Of a DNA stretch of 20,134 nt, positions 2,221-14,691 are shown piece by piece. The position numbers and the translations under genes were made by a program. The DNA is from a virus, in IMG/VR virus record IMGVR_UViG_3300030060_003757, positions 1 to 20,134 of that record. One strand, written 5' to 3'. A model generated the notes under the pieces. That model was not told where the DNA came from and did not search any database. It saw nothing but the letters and a program-made list of their open reading frames with translations. Position 1 is the stretch's first letter. Each line of letters begins with the position of its first letter.

Positions 2221-4434
2221 TTATTCTATTATTTTCGACGTTACTCCTTTGTTATTATACTTAGATAATCCAAAAGAAATTTTTATATTTTGTTTATCAG
2301 CAACTGGTTTGTATAAATTTCTATTACAAGCCATTATAGCTAATCCCGAGCTAATCGTTGCGTCATATTTTGTTCTGTTATTAATATCAAATCCAGACCA
2401 ATCAGTTAAGGTTCTATTAAAATACATGTCACCATAAGTGTGGTCTTCTTTTAAACCTATATATTTTTGTATATAAGTTTCTATAGCCGCGGCATGTGCT
2501 TGCCTTATATCTTCACTAGAATTAGGTATACCACCTATTTCTTTTTCAGCTGTTGATAATTTATTCCAAACTTTATCAGGTCTATTCATACTAAAACCTC
2601 TATATCCTCTACGTTTAAAATAATATAATAACCTTGGTTTATTGTTTTCTGCAAGTATTGGCATACCGTAAAATATACAAGCCATTAAAACATCTTCAAA
2701 AAACATTTCAGCGGTTTGTGGTCTAGCTATATACTCTAAAAAAAACTGGTTTGGTGGTACATTTTCCATACTAAACTTAGTAAGTCCATGTAAAGATCCT
2801 TTTGATCCTTTGTTATCTACAGTACCAGATATATCATAGCTATCACAACCAAAAGCTCCAACGTGTTCGTTACCTGGGTATTTTTTACCATTACGCATAA
2901 CAATATTGTTTTGCATATTGTTATCAGGAATCCAACTAACATAAAATCTACCGTTTGGATTAGGTGCAAAAAACACCCTTGTATCTTTTATACCGTTAAC
3001 CCACTGAAAACTACCTTGCGTTACTAAATGTGTTTTAGTACTATCGTTTATATAATCTATTTGCTCGTATATTTTTACTAAATTAAATATACTGTTTTTA
3101 GTTTCATCTCTAAACGCATGATCTTCACTTCTTGGAAACTGTCTGTAAAACTCATTTAAAGCATCTTGATCATTTTTTAATCCATCAACTTCGTTTTGCC
3201 AGTGATCTATTACACCTATATCTATTAGTTCGTTATCTGGTCCGACGACATCATTGTCTGGACTATTAAATACTGGAATACCGTGTTGGTCAATAAATCC
3301 TTCGTAGTTCCACTCCATTGGGATAAAAAGAGAATATAGCCCAGACTTTGTCTGTCCATTTCTGTTTCGTTTTGTGACATCTGAAGCATCGTATAATTTT
3401 TTAAAGTTATCACCTCCTTTGTCAAGAGCATTACTCGTTGACCCCATCATGCATTTACCTATTACCCTACTACCTAATCGTAGCGTTGTTTTCGTAACCC
3501 TCCAGTTGTTGAGGATGTTGTTCGGCCTTTCCCATTTACCTGATTCATCATGTACGAGGAGTTTGAGTTTCTCCCCATCGTAGGAGTTATCACCCGTGTT
3601 CTTCCAATCGATGGTTGTGTCAAGACCTTGTAAGGCTTCGGGTTTATCGGTACTTGTAATGTTCCGTCTTGTAAGCTTTGATGCTGGAACTCTGTAGGCA
3701 AGTTCAGTCTTGGGCCTGTCCATACCGTCCTGTATCGGCTTGAAAAAGAAGGGGTAATTAACCGATATGGGTACCACCTTGTCTGTAAACATCTTCTTCG
3801 CATCAGGCCCAGACTTGGATAATATACCAAATCTAGAGTCACTTGATATGGTTGCCATATTAACCGTCTCTCCTGAAGCCATAAAGGAAAAACCAGATCG
3901 TCTGTTTTTAAGATAACACATCCCATAGGATCGTTTATCTGCTTTACAAGCTTCCCAGAAAATATAGAATAATCTGTTTGCTTCACGAAAGTCTGGTTTC
4001 CCAACGTCAATTTTACTCCACTGCAAGTACATATAATGAGTACCAGTAATATAAGTAGGCTTGTTTTTATTATAATACCAAAAACCTTCTTCTCTTTTTT
4101 TAAACTCATTTTCTATGTAATCTATATACTTGCTTTTAAATTCTTTTGGGTATTCCTTCCAGTCAAATATTGTATTAATTCTATTTAATTCTTTAGGATA
4201 TTCTGTTACTTCCCATTTATTACTTTTAAACTTATGTACTTGTTTAGGTTGTTGTGGTAAAGCTATTTTGAGGTTTTGTATCTCATATATATCACCTATC
4301 ATACCTGTTTTAGATATAACAACAATATCATGTTCTTGGTTATATCCATAATCCCATTTTTTAGATTTATTTAATCTTTTAATGGTATTTATTTTTATAG
4401 GCTCTACGACCTTATATAAAGTTTGCTCGTACAT
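2221..4434 (-). CDS. terL: Large terminase subunit (TerL)
   Basis: 737-residue packaging motor: an N-terminal ATPase that translocates DNA into the prohead and a C-terminal RNase H-fold nuclease. Visible motifs: a degenerate Walker A, KNRRSGFS (176-183), lacking the usual Lys-Thr/Ser pair; Walker B KLLVHDES (291-298), with Asp296 and catalytic Glu297; a coupling motif GSTSN (331-335); nuclease acids in GAFGCDSYD (Asp531) and the late motif TKYDATISSGLA (Asp691). The degenerate P-loop and the gene's place before the portal fit crAss-like terminases. The start overlaps the stop of the upstream TerS candidate by one base (TAATG), suggesting translational coupling. The ATPase region (about 3230-3960) is much richer in G+C than the ends of the gene. 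Function is secure; clade is less so. Confidence 0.92.
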   Translation of the reverse strand: MYEQTLYKVVEPIKINTIKRLNKSKKWDYGYNQEHDIVVISKTGMIGDIYEIQNLKIALPQQPKQVHKFKSNKWEVTEYPKELNRINTIFDWKEYPKEFKSKYIDYIENEFKKREEGFWYYNKNKPTYITGTHYMYLQWSKIDVGKPDFREANRLFYIFWEACKADKRSYGMCYLKNRRSGFSFMASGETVNMATISSDSRFGILSKSGPDAKKMFTDKVVPISVNYPFFFKPIQDGMDRPKTELAYRVPASKLTRRNITSTDKPEALQGLDTTIDWKNTGDNSYDGEKLKLLVHDESGKWERPNNILNNWRVTKTTLRLGSRVIGKCMMGSTSNALDKGGDNFKKLYDASDVTKRNRNGQTKSGLYSLFIPMEWNYEGFIDQHGIPVFNSPDNDVVGPDNELIDIGVIDHWQNEVDGLKNDQDALNEFYRQFPRSEDHAFRDETKNSIFNLVKIYEQIDYINDSTKTHLVTQGSFQWVNGIKDTRVFFAPNPNGRFYVSWIPDNNMQNNIVMRNGKKYPGNEHVGAFGCDSYDISGTVDNKGSKGSLHGLTKFSMENVPPNQFFLEYIARPQTAEMFFEDVLMACIFYGMPILAENNKPRLLYYFKRRGYRGFSMNRPDKVWNKLSTAEKEIGGIPNSSEDIRQAHAAAIETYIQKYIGLKEDHTYGDMYFNRTLTDWSGFDINNRTKYDATISSGLAIMACNRNLYKPVADKQNIKISFGLSKYNNKGVTSKIIE

Positions 4435-4709
4435 TACTTAGATCTTTTTTCAGCAAAACCAGAAAAAGCATTATCTTTACTTTCTTCTTTTATTTTACCA
4501 TCAAGCATGTCTTGCTCTTCTTGTATTCTATTTAATATTTCAAAAGCATCAAATATAGCTAGTTTTTTTGTAGCAGCAGCGTTTTTTAATCTATCAGCAC
4601 TAATATCGTCTTCACTATCAACAATAGCTTCTTTAGCTACTTTTATTAATTCTTCAACCGCTTTGTGCCCAGCTTGGATTATATTCTTTTTCGTTTCCTT
4701 TACGCTCAT
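4434..4709 (-). CDS. Probable small terminase subunit (TerS)
   Basis: 91-residue, mostly helical, charged protein. The central segment ADRLKNAAATKKLAIFDAFE (residues 39-58) followed by ILNRIQEEQDML resembles the small terminases annotated in crAss-like and other marine phages, which assemble into a ring that recognises DNA and hands it to TerL. It sits directly before terL, with the TAATG stop-start overlap typical of terS-terL pairs. Its first 56 bases overlap the end of the GroES-like gene in another frame, an unusually long overlap for this window. The ATG at 4709 is the only N-terminal Met; no Shine-Dalgarno precedes it. No helix-turn-helix is obvious by eye. The assignment rests mainly on position, size and the central motif. 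Confidence 0.6.
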   Translation of the reverse strand: MSVKETKKNIIQAGHKAVEELIKVAKEAIVDSEDDISADRLKNAAATKKLAIFDAFEILNRIQEEQDMLDGKIKEESKDNAFSGFAEKRSK

Positions 4710-5244
4710 ATTTTATTTGTATTAAATTAGATTTTATTTTATAAAGAAGCTCGCCGTCTATAATAAACTCATGCTCAACGTTATTTCTAAAACCAACTAA
4801 ATCACCTGGTTTATGTTTTGCACTACAATATTTTATTACACCTACACAATGTTTTTCAGCATTTGTGCTATACACATTGTCGTTTTCTACAGGTTTTACA
4901 AAAGAATAATCATCTACAGCTTTCCACTTGTTGTCTCTTTTATATAAAAAAACACACTCTATAGGACAAACGTATTTATTTTCATTTATATAGAATCTAC
5001 TGTTCTGTAGTTTTCCTCTTACATCATATGATTTTCTAAAAATATTATGATGTATGATTATTTCATCACCAACTTTAATACTGGTTTTATAATGTTTTGG
5101 AACAGCTAACACAACAGCAGTTCTATTTATACTTTTATGCTCTTCAATACGAGTATTTATTATTAATTCCTTGTCACCTATTTTTTTAACATTATTGTAT
5201 CTATTACCGACAGGCTTTATAATAAAATCAAACAATCCTTTCAT
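4654..5244 (-). CDS. Tandem GroES-like (Cpn10) co-chaperonin
   Basis: 196-residue protein that I read as two GroES folds in one chain. Module 1 (about 1-102) has NRTAVVLAVPK (41-50) followed by IKVGDEIIIHHN (56-67), matching the GroES pattern of a G/A-x-V-L-A-V strand then K-V-G-D-x-V. Module 2 (about 112-180) has CVGVIKYCS, HKPGDLVGF (144-152) and EFIIDGELLYKIKSNLIQI (159-177), matching the GroES C-terminal half (KxGDxVxF, then IDGExLY-I and a final beta strand). The stretch THRIEEHKSIN-like at 30-40 is where the GroEL-binding mobile loop would fall; module 2 has little room for a loop. By analogy with T4 gp31 it may cap host GroEL during folding of virion proteins, but chaperonin binding is not shown. 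The start overlaps the SET gene by 17 bases. Confidence 0.6.
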   Translation of the reverse strand: MKGLFDFIIKPVGNRYNNVKKIGDKELIINTRIEEHKSINRTAVVLAVPKHYKTSIKVGDEIIIHHNIFRKSYDVRGKLQNSRFYINENKYVCPIECVFLYKRDNKWKAVDDYSFVKPVENDNVYSTNAEKHCVGVIKYCSAKHKPGDLVGFRNNVEHEFIIDGELLYKIKSNLIQIKYERKGNEKEYNPSWAQSG

Positions 5245-5599
5245 TTTCTAACGTGTGATGTCTATAGTTTACAAGTATTTCTGTGTTTTTAATTATGTTT
5301 TTTTCAGCTAACATAAGCAAATCTTTATTAGGAAGGTAATAAAACTTAGCGTTGTTATCGTCACTGTGATTAACATATCTACCTAATATTGTTTTACATT
5401 TATTATCTACACTTCCTAAGCCAATAATATCACCTTTTAATATATTTTTTTTTGAAAACACACCTTCACCGTGTATATTTGACTGTTTTTTATAATATAT
5501 ATCAGATGTAAATTCTAAAACCACACCATTGTTCGTTATAAAATTTAACTGATCCTGTGTTAAACCAAGATCTTTTAACATATCTTTATAACCCGTCAT
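5228..5599 (-). CDS. Miniature SET-domain protein
   Basis: 123-residue protein with the ordered motifs of a SET domain: IHGEGVFSKKNILKGDII (42-59, SET-N), GRYVNHSDDNNA (73-84, the NHSxxxN core that binds S-adenosylmethionine), and EILVNYR (107-113), equivalent to the ELxxDY motif with the catalytic Tyr (Tyr112) kept and Asp replaced by Asn. SET enzymes methylate protein lysines. Here the I-SET region between the motifs is very short and there is no post-SET cysteine cluster, so it is near the minimal size. Substrate is unknown: host protein, GroEL and virion protein are all possible. It starts at a TAATG overlap with the upstream 73-codon gene and ends inside the GroES-like gene, so the three are probably co-translated. 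Confidence 0.7.
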   Translation of the reverse strand: MTGYKDMLKDLGLTQDQLNFITNNGVVLEFTSDIYYKKQSNIHGEGVFSKKNILKGDIIGLGSVDNKCKTILGRYVNHSDDNNAKFYYLPNKDLLMLAEKNIIKNTEILVNYRHHTLENERIV

Positions 5600-7026: not shown

Positions 7027-7601
7027 TATGAGTAATTTATTATTGGTATGTTATACTTATTTGAATTATAATATTTATTACTAGGTGGATTCACATCTAC
7101 TTCGTGATACTCTACATTTTCAAAACCTAAGTCTGTTGGCATGTTCCAATAAGTAAACTTACAGTTTGGTTTTCTAACAAGATCCACGTGAATTGGTAAC
7201 GCGTTTAAAAAATCATCACCATAAGTATCTTGTAAAATTGCATCAAACTTAGTTTGCATTAAAGGCATTTTATCTACCCACAAACCTTCTACAATAGTTA
7301 CGTTACTTTTATTACTTGCCCACTCTTGTAACTTAGGTATAATGTCCTTGTGACACTCTATAATTGTGTGAGATTTAGGTTTTCTAGCTTGTATGGCATC
7401 AGATAATATACCCATACCAAATCCTATTTCTAAAACGTCATCTCCTTCACTCACACATAATTCAGCCATCTTTTGCATAATAGGTGTTTCCCAACCCATC
7501 ATTACTTCATAGGTTTCGTTATGACTAGGATCTACCCAGTAAATTCCATTTTCATCAAATGTTAAATCTGATGCTCTATATCTCTCTGCAAAATTAGGCA
7601 T
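7026..7601 (-). CDS. GAMT/RMT2-like SAM-dependent methyltransferase
   Basis: 191 residues resembling guanidinoacetate N-methyltransferase and related arginine methyltransferases. Motifs in order: VMMGWETPIM (33-42; GAMT has WETPYM, whose Glu contacts the guanidino group), VLEIGFGMG (56-64, SAM-binding glycine motif I), IIEC (80-83, acidic end of strand 2 binding the SAM ribose), VEGLW (104-108), ILQDTY (122-127; GAMT ILYDTY, with the second guanidino-binding Asp), and CKFTYWN (147-153). It is shorter than GAMT (about 236 residues), mainly at the N-terminus. The chemistry suggested is methylation of a guanidino group, on a small molecule or an arginine. Its position between the giant fibre and a tail protein suggests modification of a virion component or host metabolite, but the substrate is unknown. 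It overlaps the fibre gene by 8 bases. Confidence 0.75.
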   Translation of the reverse strand: MPNFAERYRASDLTFDENGIYWVDPSHNETYEVMMGWETPIMQKMAELCVSEGDDVLEIGFGMGILSDAIQARKPKSHTIIECHKDIIPKLQEWASNKSNVTIVEGLWVDKMPLMQTKFDAILQDTYGDDFLNALPIHVDLVRKPNCKFTYWNMPTDLGFENVEYHEVDVNPPSNKYYNSNKYNIPIINYS

Positions 7602-10600
7602 TACAATTACAATTTTTACACTTGTTACACTTTTTCAACTCTTCAACTTCTTGAGTTAATTCTTTTACAGCTTCAATTAATATACCCACCACATTACCAT
7701 AAGCTACAGACTTCATACCTTCATCATCTGTTTTTACAACCTCTGGTAAAATCTTTTCTATTTCTTGAGCTATAACACCAATTGACTTTTTATCTTCACC
7801 TATCTTGTTAAATTCAACACCTCTAAGTTTATTTACTTTTTCTAGCGAGTTGTCAATTGTCTTAATATTTTCTTTTACTCTTTCATCAGAGTAAGCTATA
7901 ACATCACCAGTTGCTCTAATAGTTCCGTTAACATCTAATCTATAACTAGGTGTGCTATCTTTTATTCCAACGTTACCACTTTCATTAACAGTTAAAGTTT
8001 CTTGAGAGTTACCAGAACCACCCATATAAACTCTCCACCTGTCTGCATCACATCTTAATGTAGCTACAGATGTAGTACCATATTCCATTTGTTGACCTAT
8101 ATCAGAACTTGAATTTAAGTTACCAATAGTACTTGAAGCAGTAACAGAACCTGTTACAGATATACCCGCAGAGCTTGTTATTAATTTTTGACTTCCGTTA
8201 TAATGTAAGTTTGCATAACCATTTGAACCACCCCAACCAACACAAGTATGTAGTGATCCCATACTGCTTTCTGATTGTAAACTGTTGTTAGCACCGTGTT
8301 TATAGTTTCTTATAAAGTTATTTGTACCGTCATGATATATTCTAAAGTCAGCGTCGTTACCAAGTCTTATTTCTTTACTATCTTGCCACTCTGTATGACC
8401 ACTTACTGTGTCATCAGCATCGCTTCTTATATATTTACTTTGAGTAGATGAACTAGTTAAAAACCCAGAATCATTTGTTAAGTCTGAAGTAGCTGTTGGT
8501 ATTGTTGGCGTGCCTGACAAAGAACCGTAAGCACCATCAAAGTTAGAAGTACCAGCTCCAATATCAGCTAAAACTTGAGCACCTGTTCTGTATTTTATTT
8601 CGCCGCCATCAGAAACTAAAAACTTATCAAGATCCGATGTTGCGTTGGAAATAGATTCTATCTTGGCTTTAGATTTAATATGTAAATCATAAGTTGTACT
8701 TACCGCAGTACCGGCAAAAAACCCACCTTCAACTTTTACACTACCAGCCATTGTCCCAGCGTGATGTAATGTTATCTTAGCACTTCCACCTGTACCATTA
8801 ACTATTAAATCTTCACCGTCAATAGTTACATTATCTGTAAATGTTTTTTCTCCAGCTATTGTTTGATTACCTGTTAGTTTTACAGCAAACCCATCAACTT
8901 CAGTTTCTGTGTAATACCTACTATCATGATTATGTGATGAAGCGGCAAAGCCTGAAACGTTACTAGAGTGTATTGTACCAGCGTTTTCAGCTGTCCAGTC
9001 AATAATTTGATTACCTGATGGTATTGTAGTGTTACCTTCTAATGCAGTTCCTGAGGTTGTACCAAAACCAGGAAAACTTGTTATATTACTAATTGCAGTA
9101 GCATTTGTTGCTATTCCAGTAATATCTTGATCACCTGTGTTTGTACCAGATAAGTTTGGAGCAGATATACCAGTCTTTGTAATATTAAGAGCAGAAACTG
9201 TTGTTTCACCGTCATTACCACTTAGCTTAAATATATACTGACCAAAATTACCATTACCCTCACTACTAGTATCTTCTATGTAATCAAATTCTGCTACAGT
9301 ATCATTAACACCAATTTTCATTACTTGACTACTAGTACTACCACTTCTCGAAACATTTAAAGTGTCTGTGTTAGTATTAGTATCTATAACAACACCACCA
9401 TCAAACCTAACTGAACTATCAAAAGTTCCTCCATTTGCTTTTGAAACAAAAATTGTAGTATCTCCTTCTAGTGCAGTCCCCGAAGTTGTACCAAAACCAG
9501 GGAAACTAGTTACGTGTTGGGTAACACTTGACGAAGATATTCTTGCGTCGTCAAAAGTTCCTGAATTTATATCACTAGCAGCATGGTTATGTGATGCAGC
9601 TGCGTAACTACCGGAAGCTTGTGCTCCTAATTCTGCTAAAGTAGGTTTATGACCTTCGTGATATATTTCGTTACCTTCAATAGTAACTTTACCAGCAGCA
9701 GATCTAGCTATAGTAGTATCACTAGAATGACCTAAGTTTATAGCGCCTGCCGTAGTTATATTTCTATCGTAATCTAATAAGTTTGTATAATCAGTGTTTT
9801 CTAAACCAGAAAAGTTTGATGTTATAAATAAGTTTTGTAACGGTATTGTTTGATAACTAGAATTACTAGGTGACCAACCGTAATAATCAACTGTTATTCT
9901 AGTATTATAACCATTATTTGTAGCTGTTGTAGTACCGTTACCAGTATGTAAAGCACCATCTGCTTTAAACATTGTTCCCCAGTTTGTAACACCGTTGTTG
10001 TTTGAGTTTAAAGGTGTTTGAGCGTTATCTACAATACCACCAAAATCTGCGGTAACTTTAGTTGTCCAAGCGTATGTTTCAGGGGTTGTGCCCTGTGGGG
10101 TGTTTTCTTCTACTGTTATTGTTGAACCAGGGTATAAAGAACCTGTCCAGCTTAATTGTTGTCCAATTTTAGCTTGAAGTGGCCAAGGTGTTGAAGGTTT
10201 AACTTCAAATCTAAACTTATAATAAGTTGATGGTACAGCCCACGATGTATCTTGTCTACCATCTAATAATTTTTTAACATTTGATAACTGACTATCACCA
10301 TCTTGCCAAGAACTACCGTTCCAATACTCAACATTTTGTATAGCCGCATATCTAATAATATCTGCTCTAGCATTTTTAAGAAACATGCTTAAGTGTAAGC
10401 TTCCGTTGTAGCTATCAAAATAATAATTATCTTCAACTGTACCGTGATATAATCCAAAAGTAGTGCCATCAACAGTTAAGTTACCAGTTATAGTACCACC
10501 AGCTTTTGGTAAAGCAGCGTTAGCTGTAGTAGTTGTACTTGTTAATACACCGTCTCTTGTAGCTATATCTACTCCATCAACTGTACCTCCTACAGTTATG

Positions 10601-13600
10601 TTATTAGTAACGCCAAGTGAGGCAGAACTTAATGAACCAGTAAAAGAAGCCGCACCGCCTGATGTTATTTTAAATCTTTCAGTTGAACTAGAACCAGTAC
10701 CCATAGATATACCGTAATTATTTCCAGTACCATTAAATTGAAGATAACCCATCTCTGTGCTATCAATTTTCATTTGTAATCTTTTACCAGCGTTTGTCCA
10801 ATCAGTACCGTTTGCTGTTCTAACATCTCTAATAGTTAGTTTAGCATTATTATTTTGAGTACCTTTAAATATTGCATTATCAGATGTATTTCCACTAGTG
10901 TTACCTAAAGCGCCACCGTCAAATGTTATTACACCAGTAGCTGTATCATCAGCATCACTTCTTAAATACTTAGAATCTGTTTGTGTTGTTATATCAAATG
11001 AAGTTAAATAACTACCAGCAACTTGAGCACCTATATTTGTTCTAGCATTTGACTTTTGAGCGTTGGTTAATCCTTGATTATCTGTATCTACCCTAACTCT
11101 ATTACCTAGAGAATTTGTTACTGTAGTAGAAAATTCATCATCGTCATTTAACGCAGCCGCTAATTCATTTAACGTATTTAAATCACTAGGAGCTGAATCA
11201 ACTAAGTTTGCTACAGCAGTATCTACATAACTTTCAGTAGCATAACCAGATAAACTAGTAGCACCAGTAAGAACAGTTCCATTAGCAGTTACATTACCTG
11301 TAATTGTTAAATCGCCATCTTCTTCAAGTGTTAATAAAGTCCCACTTGTTCCAGTTCCATGTTTACCAATACTAAATGTAGAGGCTGAGTCGTTATTGTT
11401 ACTATCAATATTAATTCTAACTTTATCATACGAGTTAATAGTAATACTATCGCTATATGTTCCGTTATCTGTAGATGTTATACTATGATTAAGTTGAGTT
11501 CCATAAGTGTCACTATCCCAAGTTAAAAATAAACCACCAAATCTATATAAGTGAGAAAATGAATTATTTACAGCTCTACCGTAAATATGGTCACTAGTAA
11601 TTAACTCAGCAACATTTAAAGAGGTTGAGAACGTTTTAGCACCTGATATAGTTTGAGCACTAGCTTTTGTAACAAGTCCACTTAAATCTTGATCACCAGT
11701 AAGAACGGTTCCGTTAGCTGTTACAGTACCTGTAAAAGTTGCACTACCATCATGAGATATTGTTAATCTAGTTTGTGGTGAAGAGTCTGTAATTGTTGAT
11801 GTTTTAAATCTAAGTTCTGCATTAGGGCCTGAAGCTGCTGCTGTGTTACTAAAAGCTTCTACTTCTGCTAAAACTCTGGCACCAGGACTAGTTGTATCTG
11901 AACTATAAAATTCAATATTACCTAAACTAACGTTATCCCAATCACCATTATTTAAATTTCTTGAGTCTTGTATTCTTAATGTTGGAGCTGTTCCGTTTAG
12001 AATTACATCCCCTGCAAAAGTTGCAGATGAACTATTTAATACAAACCAGTTTTCACTTAACGGCGCTGTTGCTGAGTTATTATCTATTGCTCCAGTTTCA
12101 ACATCAGATCTACCAAGAGCAATAACATTATCTCCAATAAAAGCTATACCGTGGTCGTTACCACTATTACCAGGAGCCTTTAAATATACATAGTCTCCAG
12201 TATTAGCATACCAACCTTGATATAAAACATCATGAGTTGTTCCATTGCTCCAGCTATCAGCTACCTTTCTAAACAAAGCACCACCAGCTTTTGATACTAT
12301 TTCGTCGTGCATAGTTAAGGTACCTGATATATCTGCATTACCGTTAATATCTAAAGATGTTCCTTCTAGTTCTGTACCTTGTATTTTGCCATAAAAAGTA
12401 GCGCTTTTGTCAGAGTCTAAAAACAATACATTTTCTAAAGAAGATCCAGTGTAAAGCTGAAACTTCATTCTTGATTTCTTATCTGAACTTGTAAACGTAT
12501 TATCTGCTTCTACTAAAACAGTACCAACTGTTAAGTCACTTGTAACAACACTGTCTCTTGCCTTAAAATTTATTACACCAACATCGTCACCAGTAGCAAA
12601 GTTACCGCTACCATCATGATCTTTTCTTGTTGAAAGATCAAGAACAGCTTTACTTGTAGCATCAGTTTTTCTTACAGTAAAGTTACCATGAGATATTTGG
12701 CTACTTGGTAAAATTTCATGAACTAAACTACCATCTACTTTAAACTGTATTCTAGTAGAGTCAGCATCATTATCAGTATCAGCTTCTATATAAACATATG
12801 AGTTAGCTGCTCTAATTTTAAAATCTACATCATTAGTAGTATCAATGATTTGAATTCGAGGAGTATTAGCGTGAGTAATAGTTAAATCACCTGCAAAAGT
12901 ACCACCGTTTGCAGCAGATACAAAGTCTGTTGGTATTGTAGGTGTTCCAGATAAAGAGCCATAAGCACCATCAAAAGAAGTTCCACCAATAGCGCTTAAA
13001 AATTGTGCGGCACTTAAATAAGATAAAGTTTCATTCGCATTTATTCTTACATAAGAAGCAACGCTTACATCACCTAATTGAGCAAAAGCTGTACCAACTG
13101 TTGAAAACGTAGGTAAACCTGATATATCAACACCATCAACTGTGCCACTTACAGTTATATTCCCTTCTATAGTAACGTTACCAGCAGTGTCTTGTTTAAA
13201 AGCATCTGAATTAGCACTACTACCAATATTAAAATTACCAGAAGCGTCTTTCCATAACCTATGACTAGTAGCATTACTACTGGTAATAGCTATACCATTA
13301 CCATCACCATCACCATTTTGCCTTAAAACAAAAGCACCTGTAGTTGATACTCCAGTACCACCGTTAAGTTCTATAGCGCCTGTAGCCGTGCTTGTTGTAG
13401 TTATGTTGCCTGCAAAACTAACACTACCATCTCCGTTAAACGCATGTTTTATATTAGAACCAGGACTAGTACCTAATCCAAATTGTAAAGTAGCAGAATT
13501 GCTACCACCATTTCTTATATACCAAGCATTGTTATTGTTTGTGTTATCAAATATAACAGCTCCATTACCATCAATATTAATATGACTTGAATCAAGATTA

Positions 13601-14691
13601 ATAGCACCTGCAAAAGTTGCGTTTTGTGAACTATCTAATCTTAACGCTAAGGTTGGTGAGTTTGCAGAGGTTGAGTCTGTATAAAACTCTAAATAGCCGT
13701 TAGCTGTGTTACCAGTTTGATCAGTACCACCTTTTATAGCAGCTCTAGTTGTTTTGTAATAACTACTACCACTATAGTAGTTATCTGTAAAAGTTATTAT
13801 AGATCCCTTTTGATCTGTATCAGCTTCTAAATTATTATATAAATCTAAATGTGCATTGGTAGCAGAAAAAGAACCTTGTGCTGTGTGTGTAGAACTTTTT
13901 GTAACAGTATGCATACCAGAACTTATTGTTCCAATATTTTTTAAGTTTCTATTTAAATCTATAAACTGTGTATTACCACCGCTACCTATCCACAAACCAT
14001 TTGATGAAGCGTCTGTTCCTCCTGTATAAAATCTAAACTCTTGCCTTGCCGACCATCCACCAGACATATTATTAGGAAAACCAATAACTTTCATTCCACC
14101 CTCAGCTGAAACGATAACAGTTTCATCAGACTCATTAATATTGCTTCTTAAAGTGTTTCTAGTATCTCCACCGGCTATTATAACAGAATCATCATTACCA
14201 AGTAATAGGGCTGCGTTTTCTGATACTCTTTCTAAAATTGTTAATTCAGTACCATTTCTATCTACTTTTAATAAAGGAACAGAAGTTGTGCCCTCGTAAG
14301 CACCTGTATCGCCTGATGGCTCATAATCAAATAGTATATAACCATTTGTAGTACCAAACGTAAGCTTGCTGTTCATAGTTACAGCACCATTAAAATTAGG
14401 ATTTTCTAAATTTAAAGTTGTATTACTACCACCTAACGTAAGTGTTACTGCGCTACCATCACCTTTTATAGCGCCTGATTGTTCAAATATAATATCTACG
14501 TTATTCGTACCATCACCAATAAAAACATCAGACGAACCATCACCTAATAAAATATCTCCAGCTGTATTATTAAAAACTAAATTACCATTACTATCAGTAT
14601 CAATAGTACCAGCGTTAGCACCAGCGTCAGTCGTAAACTGTATCTTATTTCCTTTCTTTAATATTATATCACTTAAAAATGGTATTGACAT
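7594..14691 (-). CDS. Giant tail fibre with C-terminal S74 intramolecular chaperone
   Basis: 2365-residue fibre. The N-terminal ~120 residues (IPFLSDIILKKGNKIQF, then Gly/Asn/Asp-rich short strands) look like a beta-helix anchor. Most of the chain is built from repeated fibre modules: at least seven variants of ATFAG-x-I/V, two copies of DGAYGSLSGTPTIPT, two of TSFPGFGTTSGTALEG, two of YxRSDADDT, two of TVDGVDI, and SHNH motifs like the HxH metal-binding sites of T4 gp37. A non-repetitive block encoded at about 9720-10440 (LLDGRQDTSW, then WPLQAKIGQQLSWTGSLYPG) may be a globular ligand-binding domain. The C-terminus (from Ser2268) is a Peptidase_S74 domain: SDERVKENI, SIGVIAQEIEKILPEVV, VAYGNVVGILIEAVKEL. 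These domains trimerise fibres and then cleave themselves off just before the Ser. A Cys-rich tail follows. The gene is intact; it likely binds the host surface. Confidence 0.9.
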   Translation of the reverse strand: MSIPFLSDIILKKGNKIQFTTDAGANAGTIDTDSNGNLVFNNTAGDILLGDGSSDVFIGDGTNNVDIIFEQSGAIKGDGSAVTLTLGGSNTTLNLENPNFNGAVTMNSKLTFGTTNGYILFDYEPSGDTGAYEGTTSVPLLKVDRNGTELTILERVSENAALLLGNDDSVIIAGGDTRNTLRSNINESDETVIVSAEGGMKVIGFPNNMSGGWSARQEFRFYTGGTDASSNGLWIGSGGNTQFIDLNRNLKNIGTISSGMHTVTKSSTHTAQGSFSATNAHLDLYNNLEADTDQKGSIITFTDNYYSGSSYYKTTRAAIKGGTDQTGNTANGYLEFYTDSTSANSPTLALRLDSSQNATFAGAINLDSSHINIDGNGAVIFDNTNNNNAWYIRNGGSNSATLQFGLGTSPGSNIKHAFNGDGSVSFAGNITTTSTATGAIELNGGTGVSTTGAFVLRQNGDGDGNGIAITSSNATSHRLWKDASGNFNIGSSANSDAFKQDTAGNVTIEGNITVSGTVDGVDISGLPTFSTVGTAFAQLGDVSVASYVRINANETLSYLSAAQFLSAIGGTSFDGAYGSLSGTPTIPTDFVSAANGGTFAGDLTITHANTPRIQIIDTTNDVDFKIRAANSYVYIEADTDNDADSTRIQFKVDGSLVHEILPSSQISHGNFTVRKTDATSKAVLDLSTRKDHDGSGNFATGDDVGVINFKARDSVVTSDLTVGTVLVEADNTFTSSDKKSRMKFQLYTGSSLENVLFLDSDKSATFYGKIQGTELEGTSLDINGNADISGTLTMHDEIVSKAGGALFRKVADSWSNGTTHDVLYQGWYANTGDYVYLKAPGNSGNDHGIAFIGDNVIALGRSDVETGAIDNNSATAPLSENWFVLNSSSATFAGDVILNGTAPTLRIQDSRNLNNGDWDNVSLGNIEFYSSDTTSPGARVLAEVEAFSNTAAASGPNAELRFKTSTITDSSPQTRLTISHDGSATFTGTVTANGTVLTGDQDLSGLVTKASAQTISGAKTFSTSLNVAELITSDHIYGRAVNNSFSHLYRFGGLFLTWDSDTYGTQLNHSITSTDNGTYSDSITINSYDKVRINIDSNNNDSASTFSIGKHGTGTSGTLLTLEEDGDLTITGNVTANGTVLTGATSLSGYATESYVDTAVANLVDSAPSDLNTLNELAAALNDDDEFSTTVTNSLGNRVRVDTDNQGLTNAQKSNARTNIGAQVAGSYLTSFDITTQTDSKYLRSDADDTATGVITFDGGALGNTSGNTSDNAIFKGTQNNNAKLTIRDVRTANGTDWTNAGKRLQMKIDSTEMGYLQFNGTGNNYGISMGTGSSSTERFKITSGGAASFTGSLSSASLGVTNNITVGGTVDGVDIATRDGVLTSTTTTANAALPKAGGTITGNLTVDGTTFGLYHGTVEDNYYFDSYNGSLHLSMFLKNARADIIRYAAIQNVEYWNGSSWQDGDSQLSNVKKLLDGRQDTSWAVPSTYYKFRFEVKPSTPWPLQAKIGQQLSWTGSLYPGSTITVEENTPQGTTPETYAWTTKVTADFGGIVDNAQTPLNSNNNGVTNWGTMFKADGALHTGNGTTTATNNGYNTRITVDYYGWSPSNSSYQTIPLQNLFITSNFSGLENTDYTNLLDYDRNITTAGAINLGHSSDTTIARSAAGKVTIEGNEIYHEGHKPTLAELGAQASGSYAAASHNHAASDINSGTFDDARISSSSVTQHVTSFPGFGTTSGTALEGDTTIFVSKANGGTFDSSVRFDGGVVIDTNTNTDTLNVSRSGSTSSQVMKIGVNDTVAEFDYIEDTSSEGNGNFGQYIFKLSGNDGETTVSALNITKTGISAPNLSGTNTGDQDITGIATNATAISNITSFPGFGTTSGTALEGNTTIPSGNQIIDWTAENAGTIHSSNVSGFAASSHNHDSRYYTETEVDGFAVKLTGNQTIAGEKTFTDNVTIDGEDLIVNGTGGSAKITLHHAGTMAGSVKVEGGFFAGTAVSTTYDLHIKSKAKIESISNATSDLDKFLVSDGGEIKYRTGAQVLADIGAGTSNFDGAYGSLSGTPTIPTATSDLTNDSGFLTSSSTQSKYIRSDADDTVSGHTEWQDSKEIRLGNDADFRIYHDGTNNFIRNYKHGANNSLQSESSMGSLHTCVGWGGSNGYANLHYNGSQKLITSSAGISVTGSVTASSTIGNLNSSSDIGQQMEYGTTSVATLRCDADRWRVYMGGSGNSQETLTVNESGNVGIKDSTPSYRLDVNGTIRATGDVIAYSDERVKENIKTIDNSLEKVNKLRGVEFNKIGEDKKSIGVIAQEIEKILPEVVKTDDEGMKSVAYGNVVGILIEAVKELTQEVEELKKCNKCKNCNCNA
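7597..7890 (-). other. Peptidase_S74 self-cleaving chaperone domain with Cys-rich tail
   Basis: Encodes the last 98 residues of the giant fibre, from Ser2268 in YSDERVKENI. By analogy with endosialidase and T5/K1F fibre chaperone domains, the peptide bond before this Ser is the predicted autocleavage site, with the Ser-Asp pair as nucleophile region. The chain then has the conserved GVEFN, IGVIAQEIE and VAYGNVVGILIEAVKEL segments and a terminal coiled coil. It ends with ELKKCNKCKNCNCNA, four cysteines spaced C-x2-C-x2-C-x-C, which is not part of the usual family ending as I know it. Confidence 0.8.
8495..8541 (-). repeat. Fibre repeat, copy 1 (encodes DGAYGSLSGTPTIPT)
   Basis: 47 bases matching 12929-12975 at 40 positions. 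The seven differences fall only at every third base, so both copies encode the same 15 residues. This is a protein-level repeat kept by selection inside the giant fibre. Confidence 0.8.
9021..9084 (-). repeat. Fibre repeat, copy 1 (encodes TSFPGFGTTSGTALEG)
   Basis: Matches the segment at 9452-9512, about 430 bases away. The shared 16 residues are identical at the protein level while the DNA differs at scattered silent positions. It marks a duplicated fibre module. Confidence 0.75.
9452..9512 (-). repeat. Fibre repeat, copy 2 (encodes TSFPGFGTTSGTALEG)
   Basis: Second copy of the module at 9021-9084, lying just before the SHNH-containing segment of the giant fibre in protein order. Residues flanking the shared core differ (GDTTIF here, GNTTIP in the other copy). 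Confidence 0.75.
12929..12975 (-). repeat. Fibre repeat, copy 2 (encodes DGAYGSLSGTPTIPT)
   Basis: Partner of 8495-8541, more than 4 kb away in the same gene and encoding the identical peptide. In both copies the peptide follows an LxxIGxxxFDGAYG-type context, so the repeated unit is larger than the exact match. Confidence 0.8.

Follow-up and report, generated by a model that had tools for sequence, protein, structure and literature searches.

Results

Here, we analysed an open reading frame of 196 amino acids on the minus strand at positions 4654-5244 of the entire IMG/VR virus record IMGVR_UViG_3300030060_003757 (20,134 bases, in the following 'the window'), which is probably a fragment. 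The gene is encoded by a marine phage and, judging from PHROG and tblastn matches, an AlphaFold2 model and structure matches in the PDB, its product is a predicted tandem GroES-like co-chaperonin. On the same strand follow a small conserved gene (4434-4709; 91 amino acids), a candidate small terminase subunit according to a PHROG search and the loci of relatives, the gene of the terminase large subunit (terL; 2221-4434; PHROG 6681, E = 4e-167) and a portal-like open reading frame (1-2220), which runs off the window and was named by its position in relatives. A preliminary description had placed the co-chaperonin gene just upstream of the terminase genes, an arrangement that turned out to be general: terL is found at most 1.4 kb downstream in all 154 loci having enough downstream sequence, and the small overlapping gene is present in 148 of them.

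The co-chaperonin gene and the small gene share 56 nt (4654-4709, minus strand), which encode the C-terminal tail of the former (KGNEKEYNPSWAQSG) together with the start of the latter. Both frames are strongly conserved (NPSW; IIQAGHKA) across 129 distinct sequences, and the conserved overlap could reflect dual coding or a conserved DNA site, e.g. a packaging signal. Since the other frame is conserved as well, conservation of the tail was left out of the evidence for a co-chaperonin. Just upstream, overlapping the co-chaperonin gene by 17 nt, lies a gene for a 123-amino acid SET-domain protein (5228-5599, minus strand; Pfam E = 2e-8). SET proteins are usually lysine methyltransferases. No counterpart on the same strand was found in related loci at E 1e-4, and the SET gene thus looks like a recent accessory gene. 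The window also encodes a very long tail-type protein of 2365 amino acids (7594-14691, minus strand), the C-terminus of which presumably resembles the self-cleaving endosialidase chaperone of phage fibres.

The 196-amino acid protein matches PHROG 13932 'co-chaperonin GroES' (E = 1.2e-22; query residues 1-172 on 2-193 of 200), and tblastn yielded 77 phage records, namely Flavobacterium, Cellulophaga and Maribacter phages and one uncultured phage, many of which carry a GroES or cpn10 annotation. Membership in a GroES-named family was thus already known. The first description of the gene as a GroES fusion in a phage is borne out as far as the two domains are concerned, and has to be corrected in that the annotation co-chaperonin GroES already exists for this phage family. 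The proteins of Cellulophaga phage phi38:1, Maribacter phage Panino and the Flavobacterium elemo phages resemble the window protein in their full-length family match and in their site before terL; their annotations, like that of PHROG 13932, say GroES or cpn10 and leave the double-domain build unmentioned. The paper on Maribacter phage Panino likewise notes GroEL and GroES homologues with no comment on the double form (PMC11590407). Viral contigs hold more than 230 relatives (a lower bound), and 20 were found in genome bins, for the most part of Bacteroidota; the few archaeal or proteobacterial labels belong to metagenome bins and are no guide to the host.

A Pfam search with the window protein gave no Cpn10 match, which we counted against a co-chaperonin. 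Among 39 relatives, 13 matched Pfam Cpn10 (PF00166) weakly (best E = 5e-4), and the family member of phi38:1 scored above the curated cut-off. Sequence searches of the PDB returned chance matches only, both as a plain search with the window protein (echicetin) and with the family profile.

The motifs that had first drawn attention to the protein are all present in the open reading frame: IKVGDEIIIHHN at residues 56-67, HKPGDLVGF at 144-152 and EFIIDGELLYKI at 159-170, with the strands AVVLAVP and GVIKY preceding the two K-x-GD motifs. By themselves, such motifs are weak evidence for a tandem GroES. An AlphaFold2 model of the full-length protein (39 sequences; mean pLDDT 83.6, pTM 0.76) and profile comparisons point to two GroES-like barrels. 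Domain 1 (residues 1-110; 4915-5244, minus strand) would comprise a barrel, a mobile loop and an insert, and domain 2 (residues 111-178; 4711-4914, minus strand) a barrel with a shortened loop. The top full-length match of the model in the PDB was chain R of 7ekq (E = 5e-5, TM 0.51/0.51), followed by chain Q of the same entry (E = 4e-3, TM approximately 0.5) and then by single GroES chains. The two chains are annotated as Cpn20 co-chaperonin subunit and Chaperonin 23, and each of them matches GroES twice. When residues 1-112 were modelled separately (115 sequences; pLDDT 90.5), the top 19 PDB matches were all GroES, Cpn10 or gp31, although their E-values were modest (0.019 or higher). Below these 19 co-chaperonin matches, and with a lower probability, ranked alcohol dehydrogenase, an enzyme that contains a GroES-like domain. 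The structure searches hence returned neither a fold with one GroES barrel or none nor another family on top, and a tandem Cpn10 in one chain, as proposed in the preliminary description, is supported by both models and by the profile comparison.

For the latter, each half was scored against an alignment of 22 GroES sequences with 200 column shuffles as control. The first half reached 23.6 (shuffled maximum 18.6) and the second 45.8 (shuffled maximum 21.0), so that each beat 200 of 200 shuffles. Domain 2 matches the GroES profile along its length with a probability of 95%, and domain 1 weakly (19%), in an alignment that starts at residue 1, spans the loop and reaches the GD motif. Compared directly, the profiles of the two domains share the GD motif only (E = 0.017), and an internal repeat is therefore not evident by sequence. 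The predicted models show the GroES fold (PF00166) in the whole protein and in domain 1 alone, and the two GroES domains lie head to tail in one chain as in Cpn20, for domain 1 more by structure than by sequence.

A distant homologue comes from Cellulophaga phage phi18:3 (Pachyviridae), in which gp096, a protein of 200 amino acids encoded just before the terminase region, aligns with the tandem family in its first half and with GroES, including the mobile loop, in its second half. In the genome of this phage (NC_021794.1), positions 31108-31362 and 41458-42060 carry a single GroES and a tandem GroES. Taken together, the models, the profile scores above all shuffles and the link through phi18:3 gp096 make the tandem build of the 196-amino acid protein well supported as a prediction; the sequence evidence for domain 1 is the weakest link.

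The two domains differ in their loops. In domain 1, the mobile-loop region (residues 12-41; 5122-5211, minus strand) contains a conserved L-I-[LIV]-N at residues 27-30; residues 27-29 are hydrophobic in 99% of 157 sequences, L27 and N30 are nearly always kept, and 27-29 align with the GGIVL(T) tip of the GroES mobile loop. Conservation of this loop exceeds the domain average (0.74 vs 0.64). A short variable loop (approximately residues 121-129; 4858-4884, minus strand) replaces the mobile loop in domain 2; the stretch is 11 residues long in 149 of 157 sequences and poorly conserved. A mobile loop with the hydrophobic tripeptide typical of Cpn10/GroES was accordingly found in domain 1 but not in both domains as in Cpn20. 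This fits the earlier suggestion that one mobile loop per chain might be at work, and since domain 2 has no proper mobile loop, we term the protein Cpn20-like rather than Cpn20. The second domain of phi18:3 gp096, in contrast, keeps a GroES-like mobile loop, and as phi18:3 thus has two loops, it would be simpler to assume that the group of the window protein lost the second one. Domain 1 further carries an insert (residues 65-84; 4993-5052, minus strand) with a nearly invariant HHN-x-FRR patch; few stretches of the family vary as little, and the conservation exceeds what is expected for a structural insert.

Potential partners were found in relatives. GroEL (PF00118) is encoded in 18 of 21 relatives' records and adjoins a single-domain GroES in the same 18; the three records with neither are shorter contigs and probably partial. 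G001, the nearest long relative (87% identical in the tandem protein), encodes tandem GroES, GroEL and single GroES. GroEL is absent from the 20-kb window, which is probably a fragment, and no GroEL was found in the phi18:3 genome; we counted both against a GroEL partner. The lids of phi18:3 would consequently have to use host GroEL. The phage GroELs share 37-39% identity with E. coli GroEL. The residues aligned with D52, D87 and D398 are conserved in them, whereas differences occur at several apical sites, which in E. coli contact GroES or substrate.

Discussion

What might a phage gain from a double co-chaperonin? Outside phages, tandem GroES proteins are known as Cpn20 of chloroplasts and apicoplasts (PMC5780408, PMC3542282). 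The phage protein resembles Cpn20/Cpn23, its best full-length structural match, in the two GroES-type barrels per chain, in its similar length and in its coexistence with a single-domain co-chaperonin. It differs in being phage-encoded with no organelle involved, in its low identity (approximately 12%), in having one recognisable mobile loop and in the insert of approximately 20 residues in domain 1. T4 gp31 (1g31) shares the fold, is matched by domain 1 and is likewise a phage co-chaperonin linked to head assembly, whereas gp31 and ordinary phage GroES are single-domain proteins of approximately 85-110 amino acids.

We suggest, with a probability of roughly 70%, that the protein is a Cpn20-like lid subunit that works with GroEL, mostly the phage's own, to fold head proteins. 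Duplication or fusion of GroES would have placed two barrels in one chain. Several such double chains may close into a lid on the GroEL ring, most often a phage-encoded one, and would dock through the loops of domain 1; lid and GroEL together would then fold head proteins that are poorly handled by the host system. Less certainly, the lid might be mixed with the phage's single GroES, e.g. as three double chains and one single chain, with seven barrels and four mobile loops in total. Such a seven-domain co-assembly is possible in so far as 18 of 21 records also encode the single GroES. Mixed lids with seven domains have been reported for chloroplasts (PMC5780408), and 7ekq consists of one Cpn11, one Cpn23 and two Cpn20 chains, again seven domains. 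For GroEL binding, a minimum of four functional subunits out of seven has been cited (PMC4242682), with which the four loops of the mixed lid would be in suggestive agreement. That a mixed lid of this kind, resembling those of algal chloroplasts, on the phage's own GroEL represents an independent origin of a Cpn10/Cpn20 system, specialised for head assembly, is a tentative proposal that we regard as somewhat doubtful. The invariance of HHN-x-FRR does not follow from a role as lid and was counted against our reading.

Alternatively, seven double chains could form a homo-oligomer, in which the first domains make up the ring on GroEL and the second domains stack on it as a further tier. The chamber would thereby become taller and could hold a large head protein, with no need for single GroES. 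One conserved loop per chain would provide seven loops for sevenfold GroEL, matching its symmetry, and T4 gp31 enlarges the chamber as well (PMC5780408). We nevertheless consider such a two-tiered lid rather unlikely, as it leaves the co-encoded single GroES without explanation and as Cpn20/Cpn23 chains, the best structural matches, carry their two domains side by side within one seven-domain ring. Unlikely, too, is that a former co-chaperonin now acts directly in head assembly or packaging, as scaffold or terminase partner and independently of GroEL. Such a role would agree with the strict position before the terminase genes, with the invariant HHN-x-FRR patch and with the fact that a complete GroEL/GroES pair is encoded separately at another site of the genome, but the domain 1 loop is conserved above the domain average, as would be expected if it binds GroEL. 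We regard it as highly improbable that one GroES domain is joined to an unrelated beta domain and looks like a tandem by chance: domain 1 is indeed barely detectable by sequence, yet its model places GroES on top of the PDB list, its profile score lies above all 200 shuffles, and in phi18:3 gp096 the first half aligns with the tandem family and the second with GroES, mobile loop included.

In the open-access literature we found no earlier report of a tandem GroES in phages, although a prior mention is possible. Taken separately, neither the family nor the fold nor the concept of a tandem GroES is new; what is new, as far as we found, is a Cpn20-like double form in phages beside phage GroEL and GroES. 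It is an open question why chloroplasts keep double-domain lids although the number of domains misfits the sevenfold symmetry of the chaperonin. GroEL, single GroES and double GroES within one small phage genome offer a compact and testable second case, all the more accessible as the Flavobacterium, Cellulophaga and Maribacter hosts of the family's phages are culturable. If our reading is true, these phages would possess a new type of lid besides gp31 and a candidate machinery for the dedicated folding of head proteins.
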